A DNA stretch of 64,000 nt from Tachypleus tridentatus (taxonomy: Eukaryota; Arthropoda; Merostomata; Xiphosura; Limulidae): positions 992,001 through 1,056,000 of the forward strand of contig NC_134830.1 of NCBI RefSeq assembly GCF_004210375.1, in the 5' to 3' direction. Positions within the stretch are counted from its first letter, which is position 1. Each line of letters opens with the position of its first letter. Shown here piece by piece: positions 566 to 42,900 of this stretch. The translations under genes and the position numbers were made by a program. Below the pieces are notes generated by a model. The model was not told the origin of the DNA and did no database searches. It saw only the letters and a program-made list of their open reading frames with translations.

Positions 566-780
566 AGAATAGGTAAGGAAACAACCTTTACAATCATTCA
601 GTGCACGACGGTAATTTGTAAAGTTTGGAGCAGAAGACAGCAGCTCAGTAAACTCTGATAACATTTTTTGGAGTCAGGAGGAACACATGCTTTGGTTCGA
701 GATAACCTAGCTAATGCACTGTGGTTAAGACCTCCAACCACTGCCATCAATGTATTGAAGTTCTTGGATTCATAAAGTCT
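566..780 (-). CDS. RASGRP: RASGRP exon with apparent one-base frame break
   Basis: The acceptor TTTCAG ends at 781. A consensus donor, GTAAGT, lies at 560-565. The exon begins [18 protein letters not shown] and runs to VPPDSKK. The conserved continuation [15 protein letters not shown] then appears in the +1 frame. The break falls exactly at the six-base A-run (minus strand) at 664-669; one more A would restore the family spacing. The end of the exon is less certain, because the residues before the donor (GCFLTYS) are not clearly conserved and a weaker donor lies a few codons upstream. Confidence 0.82.
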
Positions 781-3700
781 CTGAAATAAATGTATGTATG
801 GATGCACATATTTGTGTGTGTCCATATATAAAAGAGATACGTTACACTAAAGTTGAAAAATGTCAAATCACTCTGAACTTGAATTCTGGCAGTTACTTTC
901 ATCACAATGATGTTTAACTTAGAAATATGCTTTCCCTTGAGTATCACAAAAGTTATACGAAGTAGCCTTAAACACATTTATCTATTAACTACTAACGTTG
1001 GGCCTATTTGTCCTCAATAATTTTATTTTTTAAATAACTAGTATTTGTGATTTATTTATAAAAGAAAATATTGTATGTTGGTAGTTTAAGCTCATTGTCT
1101 AAATAAAAAATAATATTGGGCATGATAATGTTTCCAAATTAACTAATAAAAAAAGTTTACAAATGAGTCAATGAAAAATTAAAAAACAAAAAAGAATATA
1201 GTGTAAAAGTGAAGTAAAACAGTGATTTGATTATGAAAATCTGCTTATACATTTCTACTAAGAAGTACACTTTAGGATGTTTAGTTTTAGAAGATAAAGT
1301 TATCATCATCGTGAACAAGTAACTGCACAGTATACATCTCAATGGATGTTAAACATTTTCTGTGTGTTGTGTTATTTGGAAGAAGAATGAAGTAGTATAT
1401 TAAAATTAGTGAATAACAAAACAATATTTCACTATAACCTATATGAGAATGTTATTACATTTTAAAGTAATAGTGAATGTTACTGTGTTCAGCTAAACTG
1501 TTGATAACAAAAGCCTATACATGTCTTACAACATCAAATTTAATGCTGTATTAATGACTCACCTTGGCAACAGCTACAAACTTTACAATCACGTCAGCAC
1601 GCTGCTGTGGCAGAGACTTGCTTAAAACCATGCATTGAATCCACTTGGAGATATCGTTACATAAAGATATGGCTCGTTCTAGTTTAGGGTTATCCTGCAG
1701 TGTTCCCTTCACTGCTGAAGTCTTGATGTCCATAAACTTCCCAATTTAGAAAAAAAAAAGAGGTCTCATTGTAATATTTTGTCAGTATAGTGCAATGTAG
1801 TACTTTAAAGTGAAGTCATCTTAAATAATTTTTAATAAAGTAAAACTCATCCTCTCTGTTTTTTATTCACAGATTTACAAAGGGAAAATTTACTTTCATA
1901 TCAATTTATATAATTTACATTACAGAATTTCTGATGGTGTTTGACACAATCAAAGAACACTTATGTTTTAAGAAATTATACAATACTTCAGCAAAGACTT
2001 ACTGTTATCCTGCTCATCATCTTGTGTTCTAAACATGTCAAATGATCCGCTAACTCGGCAGGTTCAAGATGATCAAATACTAATGACACTTTTTTCTTGG
2101 TGTGCTTGCAGAAGGATTTCTTACAGACACACTTCTTGCCCAGTGGTAAGATGGACTGTAAGACATTTAACGATCACAATTGTAAGAAAACATTGCACTG
2201 TTTTTTAAGTAATTGTGTACTTTTAAATAATTCTTTCAATTATTTCATCAAGATATAAAACAAATAAATCTAAAAATTATGTGACAGTCTTTCAGGTTCT
2301 TATAATGAAAAATACAGAAAGGAACGGTTAGTTACACATGTACTTACACTTTGGAGACATCCACTAAATCTCCCAAGGCACTGTAACCTCTGTCTCGTAT
2401 AGACTGCTGAAAGTCCAGCAACAGTTGAGTAACTTCATTATTTAGGTCAAAATGAATTGGAAATGACCGTATCCAAAACCTATAATTTTATGAATAAAAA
2501 CACAACATATTTCATCTAATATTTTGCAATTGATAAGTATTTTAAATTATTTGATAACATTTAGATTAATTAAGTTGTGCAGTTGAGATGTTATAATATT
2601 CTTTTTACTGAGAATCCGTACTGGTTCAGTAAAGAAAGATTTGTTAAAACAGTCTTATCTAAGATCTTGTGATGCATGTGCAATAAGTCATGAGGAAGGT
2701 GGGAAAGTAAAAAATTATCAAATAGTTGATATGTGCACTGCACTGGATCAATGACATTCAGGACTTTTGAGTCACATGGTTGTTAATACATTAGAGCAAA
2801 ACAACAAGGAAAAACTATCAGTATCTGATCTGCTTTACTATGTCAAGAAACATGATTTTACTCTAATTTGCATGCTTCGATACTGGTACACTTAATAAAA
2901 TTAAAATCCATGTAACTAAAGAAATTGGAAACAAAAAAGCATTAGTGAAACTAGAAATTTTCTCATTTAATTTGATAATATTGACTGAAATAAAAAGCAA
3001 ATGACAGAAAAACCATAACCCAATATTTACTGAGTATAATTTTCTGCTGTAGTAGTGGTGTACACCACATATTTTAGAAAAAAATTCAAATGTGGCAGTC
3101 ATAGACATTTGATATGCTTGGGAATAACAATTATAATATCAAGTATTGCATTTTACAGAGCATTGTACATGGTTTTGACAGAAGTCAATTATGAATGACA
3201 ATGTTACAATCTCCCAGTTCTCATCAAATAAAAAACCAAAAATGTATTGGGGAGGTCTGGAATTACATCAGTGTTAGATATTATAATTACTGTTAACACT
3301 GCACTTTTTCAAATGCTACAAAATGCCAGAAATAGCAAGCAAGGAAAAATTACCTGCCTGCTACCTACAGTCAATTTAACCAACAACAAGCAATTTTAGG
3401 TGCAACCTGAGTTATACACCCTGTGTATTTGCTACTGAAATTAATTAGTGTCATATCAATTTTGCCCCCACTAGTACAGCGGTATGTCTCGGATTTACAA
3501 TGCTAAAATCAGGGTTCGATTCCCCTTGGTGGGCTGAGCAGATAGCCCTTTGTGGCTTTGCTATACGAAAACACACACATACATATCAATTTTAATAAAA
3601 CATTTTTTTGAATAGAGAGACTCCATGTATAAATATCACTTAACAGCTAGGTAAGATCAACTACATACACACAGAAAGGTTTTATTAAAAGAAACAATAT

Positions 3701-6700
3701 TTGAATACCACTAAATACAAAGTGATATACAAACAACTATGTAAAACATAAAATATTACTTAACAGTCTCTTATTTATGTGATAAGTTATTTTCACTGGA
3801 GATGACAAATTATATTAATAATTGTAACTTTTTTTAGAATATGGTATACAGTGTTTCATATATTGTACAATAAAAGTGTTCCATATGCTTTCTATCATTT
3901 TCAACCAACATATCAAGCTTATTCCTAAACAAGGCTACTGAACCATCATCTGTTTTCTACAGTGTTCATTGCTTCTCATAACAACCTGTATACTGCCACA
4001 CACTTTATTTAGTTCTCTTAGCTTTTTTGATAGAAAACAAGAGAAGAAAAAGAAATAAAACGTATCATCTCATATAAATCCTCTGCCAGTTGTATTGATT
4101 TTCTAATGAAAAAAGGCTAGTACAGAGGCATGAGACTAAAGGTAGAAACAGTAATGCAGACATGAACATTTTTCTTTGGTGTACAAGTTATGCCAGTTAG
4201 ACTGAGGAATAAAGATTTCACTTTGAAGTTTGTATTGTTAATATATTATAGTTGGGGAAGACAATAACAAGCAACTAACTGAATTTTTTTAATGGTTACT
4301 TCTTATCAAGAAATGACAGCACTTGGTAAAACTGATTAATTCAATGTATAAGAAGAAAATACAATACACTGACCTTGGTGGCATAAGAAAAGAATATACT
4401 GTATCATTTAGTGTTTAATGGCCCTAAAATTTATGGTTTAATGCATTGCCCGTCAGCTCCTGAGAAGTTATCTGATAAAATGTTTAAGGAGCTCTTTGAC
4501 TGAATTCTGCATTATTGTCATTTATGTTTTCCCCATTCATTCAATGGTTTAAATTAAACTCTCATTTTATAAAAACAGGTTAATCAATTTATGAATTTAT
4601 GGCTGAATCAAGAAACATATAATGATTTTAGGGGAACTTTATGGAAGTAATACTTTGTGATATGTATGCAGGAATAATGTGTATAGGATGATAAAATTCA
4701 GCAAAGGTTGTTATTAGAGTTACCTTGAATTTAAAATAAAACTATGGATATAACACAAGTGATGGATCTAGTGGAAATAAATGCTACTGACATTCAATCA
4801 AATCTGAAAGTCACGTTATATGAAAAATGGTTTTGAGGTAGTGTTCAGAATTAAGAACTATAATTCCTTCTTGTCTGGCAGGCATATTTCAAGTGATCAT
4901 CCATCAGCTAAACGAAGTCCTCACAATTTCTTCATCCAAAATATTGAGGTGGATTCTGACATCTGGCACGCATAATTACTCATCTAAATATAAGCCAAGC
5001 AAGAATATTGTCATGCTGATGACATAAACCATTTTCCATTACAAACGATTCCAATACAAACTCTTATACCACAGGAAACAGTGCTATTATTAAAGTTTTA
5101 AAATGCTTCTCCTGTCACAGCTAAAGAAATTGATAAAATAAGATCCTATCTTATCCTGTGTTTGCCTCTTCATTACCAATAGATGGCTTAATGCAAAGGA
5201 ATTCAAGGTTAAGTCATAATTTTCACATGAAATGGAACTGAATGTACAAGAATGAGTTAAACTGAAGGATAAGAAAGTTTTATCATCTAAGCCAAGTAGA
5301 TCAAGACACTAGATACTGCTACATAAATCACATTTAAGAACACTGAGAATGAAACTTTTGGTCAAAGTTATAGTTATAATTGCATATGGATAGGAATATT
5401 GGTAAGGGATGTGTCACATGTTAATTAAGCTAATACTAATTAATACCAGTTTCACCCATGCATCCATGGGATCATTCAAGAGAACCATGTGTAAGAGTAC
5501 ATGTTGATCATGTTGCTCCATTCACAGAGCAAATGTTCCTAGGCACAACCAATGTGTATTAAAAATGGATGGATTTGTATTTAATTGTGAACAATACACC
5601 TGAAGGGACAATTAATAATTTTAAATATTGTTTGTTAATGGTGTGTTACTTATACTTTAACATTAAATAACTCTTATTCATTCATCAGTATTCTGCTGCA
5701 GGAATTTATGAGTACCGAGAAATTCACACACTTGATCTCTGCACATTATCATCCTGGACTGAATGGTTTGATAGAGAGATAAGTACAAACAATTGAAGAC
5801 ATCATGAAAAACTGCAAGGGGGTAATAAAAAAAACCTATGGATTCTGATTCCTCTTTAATTATTAACCTATATTCTACTTCTGGTTCCTCTTTAATTATT
5901 AACCTATATTCTACTACTGACACATTTTCTGCTGAATTTCTGATGGGTATAAAAATTGAAGATTCATCTTGTCTTACTTAAACTGGAGGTGTTGATGAAA
6001 GATTGCTCCACTTAGTTCAAAAAGCAATTATGACTCAAATGCAAAGGTCCAATATTTAAACAATGAAAATAAATTATATGCTTACAACTTTGGATTTTAT
6101 CCATGATCGTTTTACAAAACAAATATTGATCAGGATAGTTCTTCATTTGTAATAAAACTAAGACAGTTGTAATGTCAGAAAGCATGCAGATTACCTGAAA
6201 ATGTCAATGTCAGATACAAGTAATCAAGTATATTCCATAACATCACATTAGAAGATGAAATTAATGAAGTTATTCAGAATACTTAATACAGTTACACTAG
6301 TAGAGAAGAAATATGTCAATGTTTGCACTGAAAATACACTTCTAAGTAAAATTGATTTTCAAAACAATCATAAGAGGTATCAATGGAACAACCAGTACTG
6401 AGAGGTTTCTCCTACATCAAGAAGTCACCTAGTAGGCTGAACTTATAATCTTAAGTGATATTTGCCTCTGACTGTTTTGTTCAAATTGGTAAAAAATATA
6501 TCTAAGCAAGTCATTTGCAGAGATATTTCTAGAATTCAATTACAGTGGATTAAAGTTGGAAAATCCTTTTGGGGTTATTAAACTTAAGGAAAATGCAGTG
6601 TAAAGTATTATATGCTGCAGAAACAGTTTTAGTACATAGGCCGGGTGAGGGAGAGTGGCAGAAAAGTGGTAATGGGGAGACAAACAATATTATTCTGTGT

Positions 6701-9700
6701 AAGTCAGGTCAGATTAGAATGAAGAATAAGATTAAGTTTGATTCTTGATGATGAGAAACCCATTTGAAGTACAAATATATCTCAGAATCGTTGGTATGGA
6801 AGGTCAAAGCATTGTTCTCTGCTTTATTAGTAAAAGTGTTAATACCTATACCAGCAGTTCTGAGATACAAGGTTACGTTTGTTTCCTGTTAAAGAGTTGT
6901 GATGGTAAATATAATACAAATAAGTAATGCTAGTTTAATGCAAGATGCAAAAAAAGCAAGTTAGGTACATTGTGTTCTATGGTTTTGAAACACATTGCAC
7001 CTGAATAATACTTTTCAATCTCAATATGCCTCTATAATTAGTAGTTTTAAAATACCATTTTTTAATAAGTAAACCTTATTTACAATCACCCTGTATATTA
7101 GGATCAAATAATTTTTTCAGCTGTTTTAAATTTCGAAAGTGAACAGAATTTAATTTTTGATTAAGTTTCAAGATTTTAGCAGTAATATTCTTATTGAGTG
7201 CTGTATCGCTATTACATATTATCTGATCCTTTCCACTTTCTATTGTGTTTTACCAGTTTAAATATATGTTTCACTCACTAAAACATGTGAATAAGATTCA
7301 TAAAACATTATACACGTAATAACAAGGAAAAATGAATAAACTTTACCTAAAAGCCTGACAAACTCTTGTGCGAAATTGATATACCCTACATCTATTAACA
7401 TACTCCAAGGTGTGGGGACATGGAGGTCTACACCCATACAACTGTTCAGCCTTCCAGAACGTATGAATGGTTAAGGATATGTGACTTTTTTCTCTACTAT
7501 TTATTTTATCCAAACTCAAAATATCATATTATTCTTTAACCAATAATAAAATTTACATTAACCTATAAACAGCTATTATAACATAAATATTTTTATTAGT
7601 TATTTCATCAAATAATGTTTATTTTTCCACATTTGCAGACTTAAGCATCTTGTGAAAATTATTAAAATTATGTTTTTGCATCTTAATCATTTCACTGTAT
7701 ATCCAAAATAATGTTCTTCAGAACTTCTGATTAATGGTTATTGCAACACCATTGTTTATTACCAAAAGCACTTTTGGACTTAAAATACTGCAGTAATGTG
7801 CACAGAACATTAAAATAGAATGGGCTCAAGAGAGAACAGAGCATTTTTCAAGTATTGTAAGACAAACTTTTTTAAGGGGTGGTGGAAATGAAATAGTAGC
7901 AAGTAAAAACTAAACAGATCATCTTTTATTCCTATTTCTCAAGTCAGTCCTTTAAATATTTTCACACTTAAAACTTTTAATAATTGTGGACATGCAGTAT
8001 TATTATGTGAGAAACAGACACATCAAGGTATTACTAATACTTGACTACTGACAATTACCAATTATAAAATGTATACCATAATCTCATTAACTGTTTTGCC
8101 CCTTTAATAACCTGCTCTATCTATTATACAACTGTGTGTCCTGAAAATGTCCCTGGTGTATAGTTTCCATTGCAAAAGGGTCTGTCATAAGCCTACATAT
8201 CTAAAACACACCACTTTACCCTACAAATTTCCATAGTCCATCAAGTGTATGAAGATTATGGTTCATCAGTGGTTGTTTTAACAATTCAGTATTGCAGTAA
8301 TCCAAAGATCCTATACATGGCAACAGGGACAGTGTGAATCTGTATGGAAGAGCATGGATATACCATTTCATTGTCTAGCTACTTGAGGAATGCAATGGTT
8401 GAATGTGAAGTATGATTGGCCTCATTTACAGACTAAGATCCTTCTTGATTATGTTGCATACTTGCTCCCTATGTCATGTGACCATTGTACACTTTTTTCC
8501 TATCCAGAGTTCCATCTATAATAGTATGTCCTATGATCTGAACTTCTTGTTGTTAATGTAAAATTATACCTTGTAATATGACAATGCTAAAACTACTTGA
8601 CAGTTTATGATATTGTGCTATATTAAGAAGGTTTCACAAACTAAAATTTGCATGAAACTAAAGATATCAGTTTTAACACTTAAAGGTTTCATAATTATAC
8701 TGGACAACACCAGCAATTAATGCAATTTCAGGATATTTAAATACCTAATCAATTCTATAGAGATATAACACAATACAACTGAAATAGCATTTCTGAGACA
8801 TTTATTATTGTAACTTATAAGATACAAAAAATATTTCTACTTAGAATTCTAGCTCATACAAAACTGCTAAAGGATATAAGTCAGTGAGATGTTTTGCAAG
8901 TTCCTTGGATGAAACAAACCACTGATGCATTAAAAGGAAAACATGTGGAAAATCATTGTTTTCTTCTTCTAGGCCACCTACTGGTACTGCAAAAAAATCA
9001 AATCAAATCACACTCAATCAAGTCTTGATTCAAACCATTTTTTCACTTTCATTGCTAATTTTCACATTACAATAGTGTATTAAAATAAGCTTTCTTTGTA
9101 ATTTTGTGATGTTATATATTCAAGAATAAACTCATAGTTTCAAAAGATTTTCTCCACCAATCAGCAGTCTTTGTCTTAACTCATTTGTGTGACAGTACCA
9201 TACTCTTTGCTACAGATGTTTTGATGAAGTTTGGGCGAGTGGAAATTAATTTTTTCCATGGAGAGGTAAATGCTCATTTTGAATTTCATCATAAAAGTAA
9301 TACCAAAATGTAGATTTTAAACCCAATACATATTACTACCCGAGATCATCATAAGAAAAATGAAAGGGCACCATCATACAAAAGTATACAGAACATAGAT
9401 AATGATGAAATTGCAAGATTATGCAAATAAAAGGATGTGAATGTTCTCCATCTACAACAAGACCCCATAACCAAAAACATCAACATGTGGTAAATATTAT
9501 ATTACAAAAAGAAAAAAAAGTATATCTCACACTAAAATTTCCCACCTTATGGATGAATTGGCTGAACTATTTAGTATGTGTGTTTTCTTATAGCAAAGCC
9601 ACATTGGGCTATCTGCTGAGCCCACCGAGGGGAATCGAACCCCTTATTTTAGCATTGTAAATCCATAGACTAGCAGGGGGCAACTACTGAGTAAGTATAA

Positions 9701-12700: not shown

Positions 12701-15700
12701 TTTTAAGTAAAATCCAAAAGAACATGGATTGATCTTCTTGCTGAAGAGGTTACGGTAAGCCTTCTTGATTCAAAATCTCCACTTGAATAAGACTGAAAAG
12801 CACAAGAAATATACATTAAAGGAAACAAAGATTGGATAGAAAAATACTTCTAAAGAAAACAATCTTAGAAAAAGATAAGTATGCAAGTATCTGAAACAAA
12901 ACTTCCTGTTTATGTACAAAAGACCGAATCTTCACTTACTGGAAATGAAAAAACGGGGAGAAGATCCTGGAGCAGTTGTAGATTATATTTACCTACAGAA
13001 GAACCGCATGTGGATAAGAAGTTCAAAATGAGCAAAATTAGACTGTGGCCCAACAAGAGAGTTGAACTAGCCTGTTGGAATCGAGAAACATTCTGGTGAT
13101 ATGAATGTCAAAAGAAAGAATAATGAGTATCTATAAGATAAGTCAAGGCAGTGAAGAAAGCTTGCTGACTCTAGCTGGCTTCTCACAAATAATGAAGAAA
13201 GCTTGCTGACTCTAGCTGGCTTCTCACAAATAATGAAGAAAGCTTGCTGACTCTAGCTGGCTTCTCACAAATAATGAAGAAAGCTTGCTGACTCTAACTG
13301 GCTTCTCACAAATAATGAAGAAAGCTTGCTGACTCTAGCTGGCTTCTCACAAATAATGAAGAAAGCTTGCTGACTCTAGCTGGCTTCTCACAAATAATGA
13401 AGAAAGCTTGCTGACTCTAGCTGGCTTCTCACAAATAATGAAGAAAGCTTGCTGACTCTAGCTGGCTTCTCACAAATAATGAAGAAAGCTTGCTGACTCT
13501 AGCTGGCTTCTCACAAATAATGAAGAAAGCTTGCTGACTCTAGCTGGCTTCTCACAAATAATATGGACACAGACAGAAGTTGAAAAAAAAAATGGATTCC
13601 AATAAAAGAAGTATTACTGTTTGAAATATGTTTTATTCTCAATAAAAGGCTAAATTAATGTTCTCTAAAGCATAAAGAAATTACAAGTCAAACATTCCAA
13701 ATGAGAAGTTGTAAAGTGCAAAAACATTAACAAGAATGCACATAAAGTATGTAAAATTAATGACATCATGGACATAAGATTACTGATGAAAAGAGTGATC
13801 TATGAAGCTATAAAGAATCAAAAACCCATGTGGCACATGTAAGTAGGAGCAAGGTTTTTTGTTGGTAGGGAGAATATCTTATTAATAATGAGATGGTTCA
13901 TGGATGAGTGATGTTATAGCTTTATTTATAATGAAATGTAGGGCAAAAATCAGTGAGCATAAAATGGTTTAGTACAGATATGTCAAGAGATAATATTCTG
14001 AAATGAAGAATCACTTTCATATACACCTATAATTTTTAATATTAACAACGATAGAATTTTTATGTGATTGAATATTTCACTTAATATAGAAATTTAATTA
14101 GAGAATTAAAAGTATTAAAACAATTTTTTCATACAACTTACAAAAGGAGCTGACTATAAGGTCTATCAAAGCATCCATACAACTTACAAAAGGAGCTGAC
14201 TAGAAGGTATATCAAAGCATCCATACAACTTACAAAAGGAGCTGACTAGAAGGTCTATCAAAGCATCCATACAACTTAAAAGGAGCTGACTAGAAGGTCT
14301 ATCAAAGCATCCATACAACGTACAAAAGGAGCTGAGTAGAAGGTCTATCAAAGCATCCATACAACTTACAAAAGGAGCTGACTAGAAGGTTTATCAAAGC
14401 ATCCATACAACTTACAAAAGAAGCTAACTAGAAGGTCTATCAAAGCATCCATACAACTTACAAAAGGAGATGACTAGAAGGTTTACCAAAGCATCCATAC
14501 AACTTACAAAAAAGATGACTAGAAGGTCTATCAAAGCATCCACACAACTTACAAAATGAGCTGACTAGAAGGTCTATCAAAGCATCCATACAACTTACAA
14601 AAGGAGCTGACTAGAAGGTCTATCAAAGCATCCATACAACTTACAAAAGGAGCTGACTAGAAGGTATATCAAAGCATCCATACAACTTACAAAAGGAGCT
14701 GACTGGAAGGTCTATCAAAGCATCCATACAACTTACAAAAAAAGCTGACTAGAAGGTCTATCAAAGCATCCACACAACTTACAAAATGTGCTGACTAGAA
14801 GGTCTATTAAACCATCCATACAACTTAAAAGGAGCTGACTAGAAGGTCTATCAAAGCATCCATACAACTTACAAAAGGAGATGACTAGAAGGTTTACCAA
14901 AGCATCCATACAACTTACAAAAAAGATGACTAGAAGGTCTATCAAAGCATCCATACAACTTACAAAAGGAGCTGACTAGAAGGTATATCAAAGCATCCAT
15001 ACAACTTACAAAAGGAGCTGACTGGAAGGTCTATCAAAGCATCCATACAACTTACAAAAAAAGCTGACTAGAAGGTCTATCAAAGCATCCACACAACTTA
15101 CAAAAGGAGCTGACTAGAAGGTTTATCAAAGCATCCATACAACTTACAAAAGGAGATGACTAGAAGGTTTACCAAAGCATCCATACAACTTACAAAAGGA
15201 GGTGACTAGAAGGTCTGTCAAAGCATCCATACAACTTACAAAATGAGCTAACAAGAAGGTCTATCAAAGCATCCATACAACTTACAAAAGGAGCTAACTA
15301 GAAGGTCTATCAAAGCATCCATACAACTTACAAAAGGAGCTGACTAGAAGGTCTATCAAAGCATCCATACAACTTACAAAAGGAGCTGACTAGAAGGTTT
15401 ATCAAAGCATCCATACAACTTACAAAAGAAGCTGACTAGAAGGTCTATCAAAGCATCCATACAACTTACAAAAGGAGATGACTAGAAGGTCTATCAAAGC
15501 ATCCATACAACTTACAAAAGGAGCTGACTAGAAGGTATATCAAAGCATCCATACAACTTACAAAAGGAGCTGACTGGAAGGTCTATCAAAGCATCCATAC
15601 AACTTACAAAAAAAGCTGACTAGAAGGTCTATCAAAGCATCCACACAACTTACAAAAGGAGCTGACTAGAAGGTTTATCAAAGCATCCATACAACTTACA

Positions 15701-16637
15701 AAAGAAGCTGACTAGAAGGTCTATCAAAGCATCCATACAACTTACAAAAGGAGATGACTAGAAGGTTTACCAAAGCATCCATACAACTTACAAAAAAGAT
15801 GACTAGAAGGTCTATCAAAGCATCCACACAACTTACAAAAGGAGATGACTAGAAGGTCTATCAAAGCATCCATACAACTTACAAAAGGAGCTGACTAGAA
15901 GGTCTATCAAAGCATCCATACAACTTACAAAAGGAGCTGACTAGAAGGTATATCAAAGCATCCATACAACTTACAAAAGGAGCTGACTGGAAGGTCTATC
16001 AAAGCATCCATACAACTTACAAAAAAAGCTGACTAGAAGGTCTATCAAAGCATCCACACAACTTACAAAATGTGCTGACTAGAAGGTCTATTAAACCATC
16101 CATACAACTTACAAAAGGAGCTGACTAGAAGGTCTATCAAAGCATCCATACAACTTACAAAAGGAGATGACTAGAAGGTTTACCAAAGCATCCATACAAC
16201 TTACAAAAGGAGGTGACTAGAAGGTCTGTCAAAGCATCCATACAACTTACAAAATGAGCTAACAAGAAGGTCTATCAAAGCATCCATACAACTTACAAAA
16301 GGAGCTAACTAGAAGGTCTATCAAAGCATCCATACAACTTACAAAAGGAGCTGACTAGAAGGTCTATCAAAGCATCCATACAACTTACAAAATGAGCTGA
16401 CTAGAAGGTTTATCAAAGCATCCATACAACTTACAAAAAAATGCTGACTAGAAGGTCTATCAAAGCATCCACACAACTTACAAAAGGAGCTGACTAGAAG
16501 ATCTATCAAAGCATCCAAGGTCCCAGCTTTCACAGCTATACCAGAAACATAGGGACGGTCCTCTTCCCACACCAAACAGTTGTTGTTGGTATTACCTCCA
16601 ATTACTTGCCATGATATTCTCATAGGATCATCAGCTT
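566..16637 (-). CDS. RASGRP: RASGRP-family Ras/Rap guanine nucleotide exchange factor, partial (7 exons seen)
   Basis: Seven minus-strand exons (16482-16637, 8860-8986, 7347-7391, 2350-2479, 2003-2155, 1563-1736, 566-780) join in phase with GT-AG borders. Known for the family: these proteins load GTP on Ras or Rap at membranes downstream of diacylglycerol and calcium. The first four exons give the REM (RasGEF-N) region, with motifs [11 protein letters not shown] and FRFWIRSFP. The next three give the CDC25 catalytic start, with [49 protein letters not shown] and [20 protein letters not shown]. The KVSL-FDHLEP and [12 protein letters not shown] blocks point to RASGRP rather than SOS, RASGRF or RAPGEF. 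The rest of the catalytic domain and the expected EF-hand and C1 domains lie left of the window. Exons upstream of 16637 were not found. Oddities: a one-base frame break at 664-669 and a minisatellite made from the first visible exon border. The paralogue within the family cannot be decided here. Confidence 0.85.
1563..1736 (-). CDS. RASGRP: RASGRP exon, CDC25 domain core
   Basis: The exon is 174 bp (58 codons, phase 0). The acceptor GGGAAG ends at 1737 and the donor is GTGAGT at 1557-1562. It encodes [19 protein letters not shown] followed by [20 protein letters not shown], the RasGEF helices that scaffold the catalytic hairpin. Length and residue spacing agree with the vertebrate family as I recall it. 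Confidence 0.92.
2003..2155 (-). CDS. RASGRP: RASGRP exon, start of CDC25 catalytic domain
   Basis: The exon is 153 bp (51 codons, phase 0 at both ends). The acceptor CTTACAG ends at 2156 and the donor is GTAAGT at 1997-2002. It encodes a basic, Cys-containing linker ([17 protein letters not shown]) and then [18 protein letters not shown], the first conserved block of the RasGEF domain. The lysine-rich run just before VSL is a shared RASGRP feature. Confidence 0.9.
2350..2479 (-). CDS. RASGRP: RASGRP exon, REM to CDC25 linker
   Basis: The exon is 130 bp with acceptor TTATAG ending at 2480. It encodes [16 protein letters not shown] and on to LGDLVDVSK. The donor must be GTGTAA at 2344-2349: the overlapping GTAAGT two bases downstream looks stronger but would throw the next exon out of frame. 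The two overlapping donors (GTGTAAGT) are worth checking in transcripts. Confidence 0.82.
3464..3581 (+). mobile_element. Short tRNA-derived SINE (family 2) with 12-bp target-site duplication
   Basis: The tRNA-like head has box A-like TAGTACAGCGGT and box B GGTTCGATTCC, followed by a short tail ending in ACACACACATA. The target-site duplication CATATCAATTTT flanks it at 3452-3463 and 3582-3593. Related copies are at 9574-9682, 26943-27066 and 37409-37529. Confidence 0.85.
4860..5830 (+). mobile_element. Ty3/gypsy-like retrotransposon relic (RNase H end and integrase fragments)
   Basis: Broken frames read like a Ty3/gypsy polyprotein. There is an RNase H end near 4900-5100 with a KEI-type linker near 5110-5140. 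Integrase-like pieces follow at 5450-5830, ending in [12 protein letters not shown], the conserved integrase stretch around the catalytic Glu region. There are many stops and frame changes and no LTRs were recognised, so it is an old dead copy. It sits in the RASGRP intron, opposite in strand to the gene. Confidence 0.55.
5849..5916. repeat. 36-bp direct repeat, two copies
   Basis: TTCCTCTTTAATTATTAACC starts at 5849 and again at 5885, with the following bases also repeated. It lies just past the gypsy-like relic and looks like a local slippage duplication. Confidence 0.85.
7347..7391 (-). CDS. RASGRP: RASGRP exon, 45 bp, end of REM helices
   Basis: The donor is GTAAAG at 7341-7346 and the chosen acceptor TTAATAG ends at 7392. 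The exon encodes [14 protein letters not shown], and the next exon continues RFWIRSFP. With this acceptor the spacing between the LY and the R-[FY]-W motif equals my recollection of the vertebrate family. A longer form, 7347-7441 (acceptor AACAG), is also open and would add about 16 residues. Confidence 0.75.
8860..8986 (-). CDS. RASGRP: RASGRP exon, REM core
   Basis: The acceptor TGCAG ends at 8987 and the donor is GTATGAG at 8853-8859. The exon encodes [20 protein letters not shown] followed by [11 protein letters not shown], the helical REM core typical of Ras exchange factors. It starts with two bases completing a codon from the 16482-16637 exon and leaves two bases for the next. An alternative donor, GTTTTG at 8859-8864, would leave phase 0 but is a weaker site. 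Confidence 0.82.
9574..9682 (-). mobile_element. Short tRNA-derived SINE (family 2)
   Basis: This is the minus-strand copy of the element at 3464-3581. It carries the box B complement GGAATCGAACC and the body GGGCTATCTGCTGAGCCCAC. Small open frames over it are incidental. Confidence 0.8.
10567..10975. mobile_element. Mariner-type MITE, 409 bp, with TA target duplication
   Basis: The terminal inverted repeats are about 31 bp. The left end starts TTAGGTTGAGGAATAATTTG and the right end, reverse-complemented, starts TTGGGTTGAGGAATAATTCA. Both continue into GAGCGTTTTT. TA dinucleotides at 10565-10566 and 10976-10977 fit Tc1/mariner insertion, and the ends resemble known mariner ends. There is no transposase inside, so the element is non-autonomous. 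Confidence 0.85.
11870..12490 (+). mobile_element. Decayed, internally deleted mariner transposon
   Basis: The inverted ends share a GATYAAAAAGTTCTAAGACTT core. Inside, broken plus-strand frames give the mariner transposase signatures [13 protein letters not shown] (second catalytic Asp) and, near the end, SAGGDYFEG. At about 620 bp it is roughly half the usual 1.3 kb, so the N-terminal half is deleted, and stops disrupt what remains. Its ends differ from those of the MITE at 10567-10975, so the two are different lineages. Confidence 0.82.
13153..13562. repeat. 41-bp tandem array, 10 nearly perfect copies
   Basis: The unit begins GAAGAAAGCTTGCTGACTCT and ends with GGCTTCTCACAAATAAT. Ten head-to-tail copies fill exactly 410 bp, and the only difference I see is one G-to-A change in the fourth copy. 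The array lies in the same RASGRP intron, about 570 bp from the 46-bp array, but shares no unit sequence with it. No coding role is visible. Confidence 0.97.
14130..16516. repeat. 46-bp minisatellite, about 52 copies, built from a RASGRP exon-intron border
   Basis: The plus-strand unit reads GGAGCTGACTAGAAGGTCTA, then TCAAAGCATCCATACAACTT, then ACAAAA, and repeats with few changes for 2,387 bp. Read on the minus strand each unit contains 35 bp of coding sequence for [11 protein letters not shown] followed by the donor GTAAGTTG, the same as the exon at 16482-16637 that it abuts. A few units lost the donor: near 14271-14282 and 14821-14830 three bases are missing, and near 14311-14330 the donor is GTACGTTG. 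Unit variants recur in multi-unit blocks. The array lies in the intron just downstream of the exon's first donor. Confidence 0.97.
16482..16637 (-). CDS. RASGRP: RASGRP exon, start of REM region; its donor is the seed of the 46-bp array
   Basis: The exon is 156 bp. The acceptor is a pyrimidine-rich tract ending in CAG just above 16637. The donor is GTAAGTTG at 16474-16481. It encodes a segment ending in [20 protein letters not shown] with one base left over. The next exon supplies two bases, so the junction reads through in frame. An ATG at 16660-16662 lies in the same open frame above the acceptor. A start there ([13 protein letters not shown]) is a possible alternative if this is the first coding exon, but the strong acceptor argues against it. 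The last 35 bases of the exon and the donor are repeated about 52 times immediately downstream in the gene. Confidence 0.75.
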
Positions 16638-28567: not shown

Positions 28568-29067
28568 NNNNNNNNNNNNNNNNNNNNNNNNNNNNNNNNN
28601 NNNNNNNNNNNNNNNNNNNNNNNNNNNNNNNNNNNNNNNNNNNNNNNNNNNNNNNNNNNNNNNNNNNNNNNNNNNNNNNNNNNNNNNNNNNNNNNNNNNN
28701 NNNNNNNNNNNNNNNNNNNNNNNNNNNNNNNNNNNNNNNNNNNNNNNNNNNNNNNNNNNNNNNNNNNNNNNNNNNNNNNNNNNNNNNNNNNNNNNNNNNN
28801 NNNNNNNNNNNNNNNNNNNNNNNNNNNNNNNNNNNNNNNNNNNNNNNNNNNNNNNNNNNNNNNNNNNNNNNNNNNNNNNNNNNNNNNNNNNNNNNNNNNN
28901 NNNNNNNNNNNNNNNNNNNNNNNNNNNNNNNNNNNNNNNNNNNNNNNNNNNNNNNNNNNNNNNNNNNNNNNNNNNNNNNNNNNNNNNNNNNNNNNNNNNN
29001 NNNNNNNNNNNNNNNNNNNNNNNNNNNNNNNNNNNNNNNNNNNNNNNNNNNNNNNNNNNNNNNNNNN
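28568..29067. other. Assembly gap, 500 N
   Basis: Exactly 500 undefined bases, the usual placeholder length, so the true distance is unknown. It removes the 5' part of the hAT-like gene that emerges on the right side. Confidence 1.
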
Positions 29068-29069
29068 GT

Positions 29070-31454
29070 CAGGAATATGACCAAAGTAGTGGAAGGCAGA
29101 AGAACACCTTCATAACAGGATCTTCCAACCTGAGAGCAAGTGCTGTTAAGGAGCATGAAAACAGTTGTGCCCACAGTCCAAGCTGTCAAGCTAAGACAGC
29201 AGAAGAAACACCTGATTTAACTGCCATGATGAAAGAATTGAGCAAACTTAACCAGACTAAGAAAGATCGTTTGCTTGTGCTGTTCAGGACTGCCCATTAT
29301 ATGGCTTTGAATGCCAAACCATTCAGTGATTTTCAAGAGCTTTTGTTGCTGCAGGAGCACAACTTTAGTATGAACATAACAGAACATTATGCCAATGACA
29401 AACAAGCAGTTATCTTTATGAAGTATATTGCTGAAACAATTAGAATTAATGTCAAATCTCGTCTGCACACCTCATTATTCTTTGGCATTATGACTGACAG
29501 CTCAATAGACACTGCCAACATTGAGAACAAGATGGTCTATGTAAGATACTTGGACAGTGACTGTTACCCAGTAACCCACTTTCTGTGTCTGCAGTCAGTT
29601 GAGAAGGCTGATTCTGAACACTTGTTACAGGCACTTAGTTTAGGTAAAGGTTTCTTAATTACCTGGGATGAGAATTTTCTGGATTTATCCTGAATTCCTA
29701 ATTAAGAAAAATTAAAATGGACAATATTTCATGTACATTTGTGTTTTAATTCAGGTTGACATAGTCATTCCATTATTAATATACATCAGTGAAAACTCGA
29801 GCATTTTTCAATTGATTTGAACCAAGAACAACCATGTATTTCCCACTGACAGAATTGGAGCTTAACCTAGCACAACTAGCGTAATAGGTAACGGAGCAAT
29901 TGAATTTTGCAAAGTACAAATGTACTTTTTTTTTTAAACAGAAAGTAACTAATATTGGGTACTAATTTTTTGTACTTGCAGCATTGTCCATATAGGGCAA
30001 GTTTCCTGACTGGCTTGAATCAATTGTATGCCTGACAGTTGATGGGACAGCTGTTAATTTTGGCACAAATAAAGGACTTGTCAACAGATTGAAGGTGCAA
30101 AAACCTTATTTGATAGGGATCCACTGTGTTAGTCACAGATTGTAACTTGCAATTAAGAAGACCATCAAGGACATCCCTTACCTTGATAGTACCCAAACCT
30201 TTTTAGAAAACCTATGGAAGTTTTATGACAATTTGCCACAGAACTGGGCTGGCCTCAGAGAAGCTGGTAAAGCCAACAACATTGTTGTTAGAAAGCCAAC
30301 AAAAGGGACAGGAACCTGGTGGGTGGCCTACAAAGAGCTCTCTGAGTCAGTTTCTCATAACGGGCCAGCTTTAGCAGATCTTTTGTATCAAGTAAAGCTG
30401 CATGACAAAGGGGAACATGGACAGAAAGCTGCAGGATTATACAGTACTTTGACAAGCCTTAAATTCATCTTGTACATGGACATACTCTTGGCAGTTCTGC
30501 CTGTTTTGACATCTCTTAGTCTCAAAATGCAAGACAATTCTGCTACTGTGAACATTGTTTCTGACAAATTCACTGTTTGCAAAGAGAAGCTGGGTAATCT
30601 GAATCATGTTGAGAGATTCCAGAAAATTGTTAAAGAGCTTACAACATGTGAACAAACTGGCAAGTGGTTACTTAAAGGAAAGGTGATTGCTATTAGTGGT
30701 CAGACAAGGGCCAGAGGCTCAAAAAGTGCCACAAAAGAGACAGTTGCTCAATCTGTGGCTGAAGAAACTGCCATCTTCATAGGTAAAATTGTCACATATC
30801 TGAATAAGAGATTTGAAGAATATGATAAAGATTTTATTGGTGTCTTTCATATTTTTGAACCAAGCAACTGGCCTAAAAGCAAGGAAGCATTGTCATCTTA
30901 TGGCCATAAATGAACTCCAGATAATATTAGACCACTTTGGTGCTCTGCTAGAAGCTAAGGGTTTCAACATTGCAGCTGATATTTGCCAAGCTGACTTACA
31001 CGAGACACTGCTCAAAGCCACAAGATTTACCAAATCAGATGAGTCCCTAGCTAGTAGTGCAAGTGGATTGTGGGCCCACATGTTAAGTCAAATTACTGTT
31101 GAGGACGGTAAACCTTTCCCTAGATCAACAGTTTTGGCCTTGGTATGCCTGATGCAGGTGATTTCCATATCATCTGCTGAACCAGAATGTGGATTTTCCC
31201 AGATGGCAGTTATTAAGGTTGACTGGTGGTCCAAACTAATAAATGATTCTCTTAATGACTTGATGACAATAAAATTAGCTAAGAATAAGACCTGTGATCT
31301 TGCAAGCACAGAATTACTGTGCAAGTCTGTAGAATCCTGGTGGAAGGACAGTAAGAAAACCAGACGATTTGTGTGTCAACATGGAACTCGCACACGTAGA
31401 GACAATAAAGATACTGAGTCCACATCAGCTGATGTCTTAGTGCTGGATGACTAA
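29070..31454 (+). pseudogene. hAT-transposase-like gene (ZNF862/KIAA1586-like), disrupted
   Basis: Right of the gap an open frame (29070-29693) starts with a zinc-finger-like tail (SSNLRASAVKEHENSCAHS). It continues with LFFGIMTDSSIDTANIENKM and VYVRYLDSDCYPVTHFL, typical of the RNase H-fold core of hAT-derived ZNF862/KIAA1586-type proteins. After a non-coding stretch (about 29.69-30.0 kb; possible intron, a GTAAAG donor lies at 29644) the core resumes with FPDWLESIVCLTVDGTAVNF. It has a TAA at 30143-30145 where the family has a residue in HRL-x-LA. A further frame change near 30895-30910 leads to the last part (to 31454), which contains the hAT dimerisation region (SSAEPECGFSQM). Length is about right for a full protein minus its N-terminus. 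It is a dead transposon or decayed domesticated gene; no inverted ends were found. Confidence 0.72.
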
Positions 31455-39900: not shown

Positions 39901-42900
39901 ATGGCTTTTGTCCAGTACCTTGCCTTAACTTGGAGATGCAGTCCTTGTCTAATACTGTTCCTTGACTGAACCTTTTGCCTTTCCTCCTTTTGTATGTAGC
40001 AGAGGCATTGGTCTTACTTAGACTTTGGTCCATTTACCATAGCTACAGTTCTTCCAGTTCTTCTGTTCTGGACATGTTCCAGTTCTTTAACTGGTTATTT
40101 GATCAGGGTTTGTCTGTTTCAACTGTTGTTCATTATAGGAGTGCCCTGTCAAATAACTTCTGTTTTTCCACTTGTTGAGATAGGTATATTTGTAAGATTA
40201 CCAGCCACTTATGTGTGTATATGCATTTATATTACTGTTTCATATATAAAAGAACATCGCACATGGAATTCATGAGTAAAGCAGATGGGGATTTTTGCCT
40301 AGTTATACTGACCCAGGATAGTTACAATCTGGGTCTTTCTGCTTTTCAGAATAAGGAATCACAGACACCCATTGCACTGTTTCCAGTATGTTCTGTCTCT
40401 GGACTCCCCAATACATATCTCCCCCTCCTTTTTTTCAGATTTTTCCTGGGTTGATTGCATTTATTGATTAAAACATAAATTTTTTATATAAGGTGCTGCC
40501 ATATGATGTTCTTTGCCCAGGTGGACTGCAGTTGGCCTAATCCTATGTATCCAAGGCACTTCCCTCTATATTTTTCTTGAGCAAACCATATTTGTTGCTC
40601 TCTGTATCTTATGCAAGGTGTTTCTCTTGGATGCTTTTGGCTGGGCAGACCACACTTGGTCATAAAACTATATATCTAACACACTTTCGCTGGATGTTTT
40701 TTGCCCAGATGGACTGCACTTGTTTATGTCAAAAACTTAGACAAGTCATTTTCACTGGATGTCTTTGCTCGAATGGACCATACTAAAAATTGATGTTGAA
40801 TGAGTTGCATGTTGATAGTTTAGAAGGTTTAGAAGGTGAAAATAGTCACTTAAAATTTCAAAATCTGGTTATAACAATGAATCATCACTAGTTAAAATTT
40901 TAGTCAAAATTGATACAGCTGTGTGCTTACGACAACTGTTTGCCATTATTTCAGCAGTAAAAACTGCTAAATTCCACCACCAGTAAATAGCCACATGACC
41001 AAAACATCCAGTAAAATAACATAGAATAGCTATAAAAGAAGAAGTAATTGCTCAGATGAGATAAAATGGCCTCCCCATTTAAAAATAGTGTCAAACAACA
41101 TCAGGAAGAGTTAATTCGTCTTTACCAGGAGAGGCACAACATGTGGAAGCCAAATTAAATCATCTCTCCCAGTTAAAGAGTTAAGATATTATTTTTACAT
41201 AATAATATCTTACTGTTTGTAGAAAGTTGTTGGGTATTTCATTGTGATGTGTTTCAAACCATATTGGATCTCCAGCAAGTAAATTTTTCCCTGTTACCAT
41301 TTGGGTCTATGACTGTTGTGTATGGTAATCTAGGTATCAATATATGGATCAATACCCCTTTTACAATTATATAGACATCTGGTGTTGATATATTCAATTT
41401 CCAAAAAAAAAAGACCATAAATGGGCACTATAGTTTTATGTATACATAGGCAACTGAGTTAGTTCAAATAAGTAAGTTAGTGAATGTGAAATAATAGTTA
41501 AACTGCATTATTGTGAATTTTGCCATAAAGAGCATATAATGGTTGTTGTATTGTAACAACAGAGTAGAGAATAATAACATGTCAGTTGTGTTCTAAAGTA
41601 ATTGAACAAACCTGTATGGACTTTCAACAAAAAGAAACAATTATTTTAAAGCTTTCAATACAACTGTGGTAGCCAACAGTTATAGTGGCGATTTAAAGTG
41701 AGTATTATACCCTTGTATTGTAATAACAAAGTAAAGGAGAATAATTTGTCTTGTCAAAGGGTGTTCTGAAGTTATTTAACCTGTCTGTGTGGACTTTAAG
41801 GAAAAAAGACTATTTAAAGCTCTGGATATAACTTATAACAAGTAATATAAAGAAAGTTTTGTACATTTATTTGACTTGTTTTGAATGTATTATTTTAAAA
41901 CAAGTGGATCATGTAATGTCTGTTTTTTGTTGAAATTTATTGCCAAAAAGTAACAGACACTTGTAAAGAATTGCAGCCCCATACAAAACTGATTCTGGTA
42001 AATGGTACCCTTCAGAGAAGATCCTAGAGGTTAACTTGTGAACAAATTCAAATACATTGTTGAAATCTTACTTACATCACATTGTTCTCTATTAACATCA
42101 GGATTCTGTATGCCTTCATTGTGATGCTTCAAACCAGATGGGATCTCAAGCAAGCAAATTTAAGTGTTACCTGTTGCCATTTGTGTCTATGACTTTAGTA
42201 ATCCTTGTATAACAATACTGACCAATACCTCTTTTGGCATTGAGGTATTCAATTTCCAGAAGAAAAAGACCAGTGTGAGATTCTGTGTTTGAATGGATTT
42301 GTCCTGTTGTGTCTCTTGCATGTGATATGTACCCCTGTAATTGTCCTATACAAATTTTACCCTTTATCTGTGTGCTTCTTCAGAAGATTACATCATCTGG
42401 TGGCTGATGATACCTCATCTTCTACCCCCCTCAGTGTGGATTCCTGTACATAGTGAGGGGACCTCCCAGGGGAAGGTTCTGTTCTTTCAGTTTACCTCCT
42501 ATGGGATCTAAACATCCACTCACCTGTTTGCCATGCATGGTGACCTGTGAAGGGGAGGAGAGGATCCTGGAGGTTGAGGGGTCCAACCCTAACACACCAC
42601 TTTGGCCTTGAATTCCTGTAGATAGGCAGCCTTGTGGTGGCCCCCCTTGGGTCATTTGGCTGGTCCATTTGGGCTAGGGTCAACCAAGTACCAGTGTTAG
42701 ATTTTCTCAACATTAGACCTTTTTTAATGCGATTCCCTTTAAAGAATCAGAGTACATCTAGTTCGATTCAAAATTAGAAAATGGCCATAATGTCAAATAA
42801 CTCGAAACCAGGACTGGAAAGGCCAACTTCAGGTGACTAACGCTGCTGTTTGAGCTACCGTTAGTCATCCTGGTGAGTTATAATAATTAAAATTTTGCTA

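Follow-up and report, generated by a model that had tools for sequence, protein, structure and literature searches.

The 64,000-nucleotide window of the Tachypleus tridentatus genome analysed here carries, on its minus strand, part of a RASGRP-like gene in which the end of one exon, together with its splice donor, stands in a long tandem array (Table 1). The 156-bp exon at the array and the exon starting at 8986 form an open frame when joined, and the joined exons match the Pfam family RasGEF_N (E 2.7e-7, 31.2 bits, cut-off 28.3) and, weakly, PDB chains of RASGRP1 (E 0.039), RASGRP2 (E 0.45) and RASGRP4 (E 1), in line with the RASGRP identity that the first-pass annotation had given the exon. 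Matches to the RasGEF catalytic domain follow downstream on the same strand, giving the succession of REM (RasGEF_N) and catalytic domains taken to mark a RASGRP gene. A search of the whole genome (2.17 Gb) with the REM query, with 7 of 7 candidates scored, led to four places, namely the two exons at each of two loci, and the array is present at both; no gene other than the RASGRP-like one turned up with these REM exons in that search. As for its C1 part, none of 63 PF00130 matches (from the best 150 of 204 candidates scored) falls at either copy, and the gene may run beyond the contig.

Table 1 Features of the RASGRP-like locus and its contig, in window coordinates.
Feature	Position	Strand	Remarks
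RASGRP-type exon, 156 bp, first half of REM (RasGEF_N) domain	16482–16637	-	AG acceptor before 16637, donor after 16482
Exon-proximal donor GTAAGTTG (donor 0)	16474–16481	-	In frame with next exon
Donor 2	16381–16388	-	+93 bp (31 codons), in frame, open; present in second copy too
Repeat units beyond exon (51), each 44–47 bp	14131–16470	-	GTAAGT kept in 48/51
Second minisatellite, same intron	13152–13562		41 bp × 10.0 here, × 9.0 in other copy (TRF)
Next REM exon	8841–8986	-	Acceptor at 8986; open frame reaches 8841; 3′ end provisional, copies differ by one T nearby
RasGEF catalytic-domain exon (matched part)	1560–1694	-	PF00617 match, C6:993560-993694
RasGEF catalytic-domain exon (matched part)	643–807	-	PF00617 match, C6:992643-992807
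Window part of 40,808-bp contig C6:979760-1020567	1–28567		Duplicates C6:16772088-16818070, inverted (genome comparison)
500-N assembly gap	28568–29067		Duplicated contig ends here

A minisatellite that spans an exon–intron junction

The array extends over 14130–16517 on the minus strand, where TRF reports a period of 46, 52.0 copies, 93% matches and a score of 4130, far beyond chance; tandem units within the range of ~10–100 bp and of high identity make it a minisatellite. Dissection yields 52 units in total, counting the exon's own end as unit 0, and so bears out the ~52 tandem copies of a splice donor and exon end described in the first-pass annotation. Read in gene orientation, the 46-bp unit joins 35 bp of exon end (16482–16516 in unit 0) to the donor GTAAGTTG and 3 intron bases, and the origin of the unit from the exon–donor junction, proposed in the same annotation, stands. 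Unit length is 46 bp in 46 of the 52, with the remaining six measuring 44, 45 or 47 bp. The donor was said to survive in nearly all units, and 49 of 52 do keep an intact GTAAGT; of the other three, one reads GTACGT and two lack the GT because of a 2-bp deletion. The intact donors all lie in an identical TTT|GTAAGT context.

The long array falls into 23 distinct unit types in a structured order, with blocks of five, five and four units recurring at a distance (units 3–7 = 25–29, 9–13 = 37–41 and 18–21 = 30–33), a pattern that suggests to us growth through duplication of blocks or unequal exchange. The exon's boundary copy differs at 2 positions from the nearest other 46-bp units. It alone carries a T at unit position 16 (0 of the 51 other units), so that at this base there is no sign of exchange between the exon copy and the array. 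A TCAG eight bases before the donor is kept in 35 of 52 units; cryptic exons through each unit's own TCAG were considered. Elsewhere in the window, a 36-bp unit is repeated 2.2 times (5843–5920) inside an open minus-strand frame (5678–5977) that matched 0 Pfam families, and an Rfam search of the window gave 0 hits.

A second copy of the locus on the same chromosome

A genome search with 101 bp of the array located a second array at C6:16784078-16784791, 15.8 Mb from the window on the same chromosome and on the opposite strand, at what is probably the home locus of the gene (C6:16.78 Mb). The comparison took in 104 kb at the window and 110 kb at the second array, and kept minus-strand BLAST pieces of at least 300 bp and >93% identity. 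The contig that holds the window array matches the home region from end to end, inverted, save for the extra array units and a home-side insertion of ~6.9 kb. Its first base, 979760, directly follows a 500-N gap, and a second such gap begins right after its last base, 1020567; the match stops exactly at these two gaps, and the home-side sequence has no N in 110 kb. Neither the position of the contig between two N gaps nor the ~15-unit copy elsewhere on the chromosome had been noticed in the first-pass annotation. It had raised misplacement of the array from elsewhere, and this is largely borne out for its location, the contig looking like an alternate haplotype of C6:16.77-16.82 Mb, but the array is present there too. 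The home-side insertion lies between 16799715 and 16806637; on the window side this point falls ~816 bases outside the window, ahead of position 1.

Identity is 99.4, 99.5, 98.0 and 99.0% in the long BLAST pieces outside the array and 95.7% in the piece extending into it. Substitutions outside the arrays amount to 159 in 37,775 aligned bases (0.42%) and are unevenly spread over the four comparison blocks (0.70, 1.73, 0.28 and 0.25%), which together hold 37,889 of the contig's 40,808 bases and leave out the two arrays, the REM exon and the joins. In the block between the two arrays, 9 of 521 bases (1.7%) differ, and the 156-bp exon is identical in the second copy at 156 of 156 positions. Among the indels between the copies, 69 of 97 (71%) fall in homopolymer runs, 64 of these being single bases. 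Beside the matched part of the RasGEF exon at 643–807, an A run differs in length by one base from the home counterpart (C6:16798088-16798345), and further differences lie near the exon's end; the frame is shifted in the window copy, probably through read error or in a damaged allele.

The adjacent contig, which begins at window position 29068, behaves in a similar manner. Its match begins at its very first base, with 1021068 corresponding to C6:16591757 (tested over 29068–31322), and a 1.5-kb piece further along (40000–41500) matches C6:16602785 at 98%, with 40 of 564 candidates scored; the stretch predicted for the far end of the home match gave no match. The two neighbouring contigs therefore both point to the region C6:16.6-16.8 Mb. 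To the left of the window's contig, the sequence at C6:974000-976000 is satellite-like, and its tandem 84–87% matches at C6:45438343-45445567 (1 of 4 candidates scored) form a tandem stretch at C6:45.44 Mb, so that this neighbour is uninformative on haplotigs.

Extra array units aside, the whole contig of the window matches elsewhere at allelic identity and ends at gaps, as an unpurged haplotig does. Comparison of the assembled copies suggests that it is most likely an alternate haplotype that scaffolding misplaced and that was not purged. On both sides of the N gap, the window seems to consist of alternate-haplotype contigs that belong to C6:16.6-16.8 Mb and were placed near 1 Mb, a reading that for the second side is based on 29068–31322 and 40000–41500 only. 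Other gene findings in the window may accordingly duplicate genes of the home locus.

By TRF, the array counts 15.0 copies at the home locus and 52.0 in the window, while the 41-bp array of the same intron is nearly constant between the copies. Unit counts were taken from a strict anchor and TRF, since a loose anchor overcounts (62 and 20); they give 52 units for the long copy, and in the short one the strict anchor occurs 14 times, with one occurrence spanning two garbled units. The first five units, of types A–E, are common to both arrays. The middle units of the short array are irregular, and this garbled part may be real or may be the trace of a collapsed longer array, which leaves the figure of 15 uncertain. 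The two arrays are probably one length-polymorphic minisatellite in two probable alleles of ~15 and 52 units.

Predicted consequences for splicing

Every GTA[AC]GTTG donor was read into the next exon in both copies. As the first-pass annotation had stated, the exon-proximal donor 0 keeps an open frame to the next exon, and the two-unit insert of 93 bp (31 residues) ending at donor 2 is in frame without a stop; donor 2 is in frame because unit 1 measures 47 bp, in both copies. These are the only in-frame, open donors among the 50 of the long copy and the 13 of the short copy. The annotation had further expected later donors to be partly in frame and partly frameshifting. Donor 2 and two frameshifting donors in each copy agree with this, the latter in the long copy running into a stop 2 or 11 codons beyond the junction, but all the others (46 of 50 in the long copy, 9 of 13 in the short one) have a stop inside the retained repeat. 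A ladder of in-frame isoforms beyond donor 2 was rejected on account of these stops.

All intact donors have the same core, and discrimination among them can come only through position and context; in sequence strength donor 0 has no advantage. By exon definition, a 156-nt exon is preferred to one of kilobase size, and when strong donors are duplicated, some experiments show a preference for the intron-proximal copy. Donor 0 ends an exon of normal size, while the downstream copies would give very long, stop-containing exons, and for this reason the gene is most likely spliced mainly at donor 0, with minor leakage to the array.

A quite different role for the same donors would be a VNTR splicing rheostat, in which equal donors compete, the share of donor 2 (+31 aa) or of stop-containing donors rises with array length, and alleles differ in RASGRP output as a consequence. 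We regard this as unlikely. Although 49 of 52 donors are intact in an identical context and the copies differ in number (about 15 versus 52), 46 of 50 donors would be unproductive and 2 more would shift the frame, and the apparent invariance of the donor is not significant. Among units of exactly 46 bp (46 of 52), variation occurs in one of the eight donor columns and in 15 of the 35 exonic ones (Fisher p 0.22); at most one variable column is present in 15 of the 46 circular windows of eight columns. Selection for intact donors finds no support in the same counts, the donor columns not being significantly quieter than the rest. Human IFI6, in which two downstream repeat units serve as donors and three mRNAs result according to the account in PMC4526556, lends the rheostat a precedent. 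The more specific proposal that hypervariable, identical 5′ splice sites act as an allele-specific rheostat on a Ras activator, with a REM-extended donor 2 isoform (+31 residues), seems to us slightly less likely again. If a rheostat did operate, array length would set the share of pre-mRNA lost to stop-containing transcripts.

Origin and interpretation

We favour a largely passive minisatellite at the exon–intron junction of a RASGRP-like gene, present here on a misplaced haplotype and with donor 0 mainly used, and give this reading a probability of roughly 0.7. The minisatellite would have arisen when a 46-bp segment across the junction was duplicated in tandem. We infer from the recurring blocks that it then grew and shrank on the intronic side by exchange of single units and multi-unit blocks, which would have left the exon copy apart. 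The haplotype in the window would carry 51 extra units, and the other haplotype, at C6:16.78 Mb, ~15 units. Occasional splicing at donor 2 would lengthen the REM domain by 31 residues, and use of the other array donors would give transcripts with premature stops; the array would be mostly passive, at most costing some productive mRNA.

The two copies might instead represent a true, recent inverted segmental duplication, with two RASGRP copies 15.8 Mb apart whose arrays took their sizes independently. Both copies do stand in the assembly, with long pieces outside the array 98.0–99.5% identical, and the frameshifting homopolymer difference in the RasGEF exon of the window is what a decaying copy could show. 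Such a duplication is nevertheless improbable, somewhat below the rheostat in our estimation, in that N gaps coincide exactly with both ends of the match, the neighbouring contig, itself beginning at a gap, has its matches in that home region too, and homopolymer indels prevail (69 of 97), as expected from noisy long reads. An array length (52, or 15) that is an assembly error in the repeat is marginally less probable even than this: the garbled middle units of the short copy and the many indel differences resembling read error speak for it, but both copies have an array of several units that opens with the same five (A–E), the long one has its 23 unit types in structured order, and error could alter the count but is unlikely to have created the array twice.

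Under the favoured reading of a misplaced haplotype, two probable alleles place ~15 and ~52 near-identical donors at one exon, a natural test of 5′ splice-site choice by position only. The pair would also test how exon definition tolerates many donor copies. It carries a warning as well, as misplaced haplotigs can make an allele resemble an extra gene copy.

Comparison with known systems

The minisatellite of the human gene IFI6 has a 12-bp unit. In the present array, the unit includes a consensus donor and adjoins a real exon, the arrangement expected of a minisatellite that provides several splice donors. Two downstream repeat units of IFI6 (also 6-16 or G1P3) are used as splice donors and give three mRNA species, according to the passage on this gene in PMC4526556; the original description (Turri, Cuin and Porter 1995, NAR 23:1854) is cited by PMC2572611, PMC3618361 and PMC4526556. 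The first-pass annotation had known of no described case; the supply of splice donors by the IFI6 minisatellite is a reported one. The two systems are alike in being minisatellites with several splice donors and differ in gene and organism; the array here has a 46-bp unit in ~15–52 copies, and its extra donors are candidates that would mostly be unproductive.

Among human genes in segmental duplications, 162 alignments with tandem repeats at exon–intron boundaries have been reported, with 27 intron modifications in duplicated genes after manual inspection (PMC2812944, which we take to be De Grassi and Ciccarelli 2009). Those repeats, like ours, are variable and sit at an exon–intron boundary, and some of them change splicing. 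That work, in the parts that bear on such repeats, compared paralogues with RNA support, whereas we compared two probable alleles by sequence, and amplified donors of the kind seen at the RASGRP-type exon are not described in those parts. CeRep25B (PMC4039745) and intron 1 of an earthworm metallothionein (PMC12783039) offer further tandem minisatellites within introns, in each case of expressed genes; their units, unlike the present ones, are not described as spanning a splice donor in the relevant portions of these reports. The RASGRP-type array probably joins the known minisatellites that repeat a donor or lie at an exon boundary, to which it adds a 46-bp unit, many copies and probable allelic variation in length.
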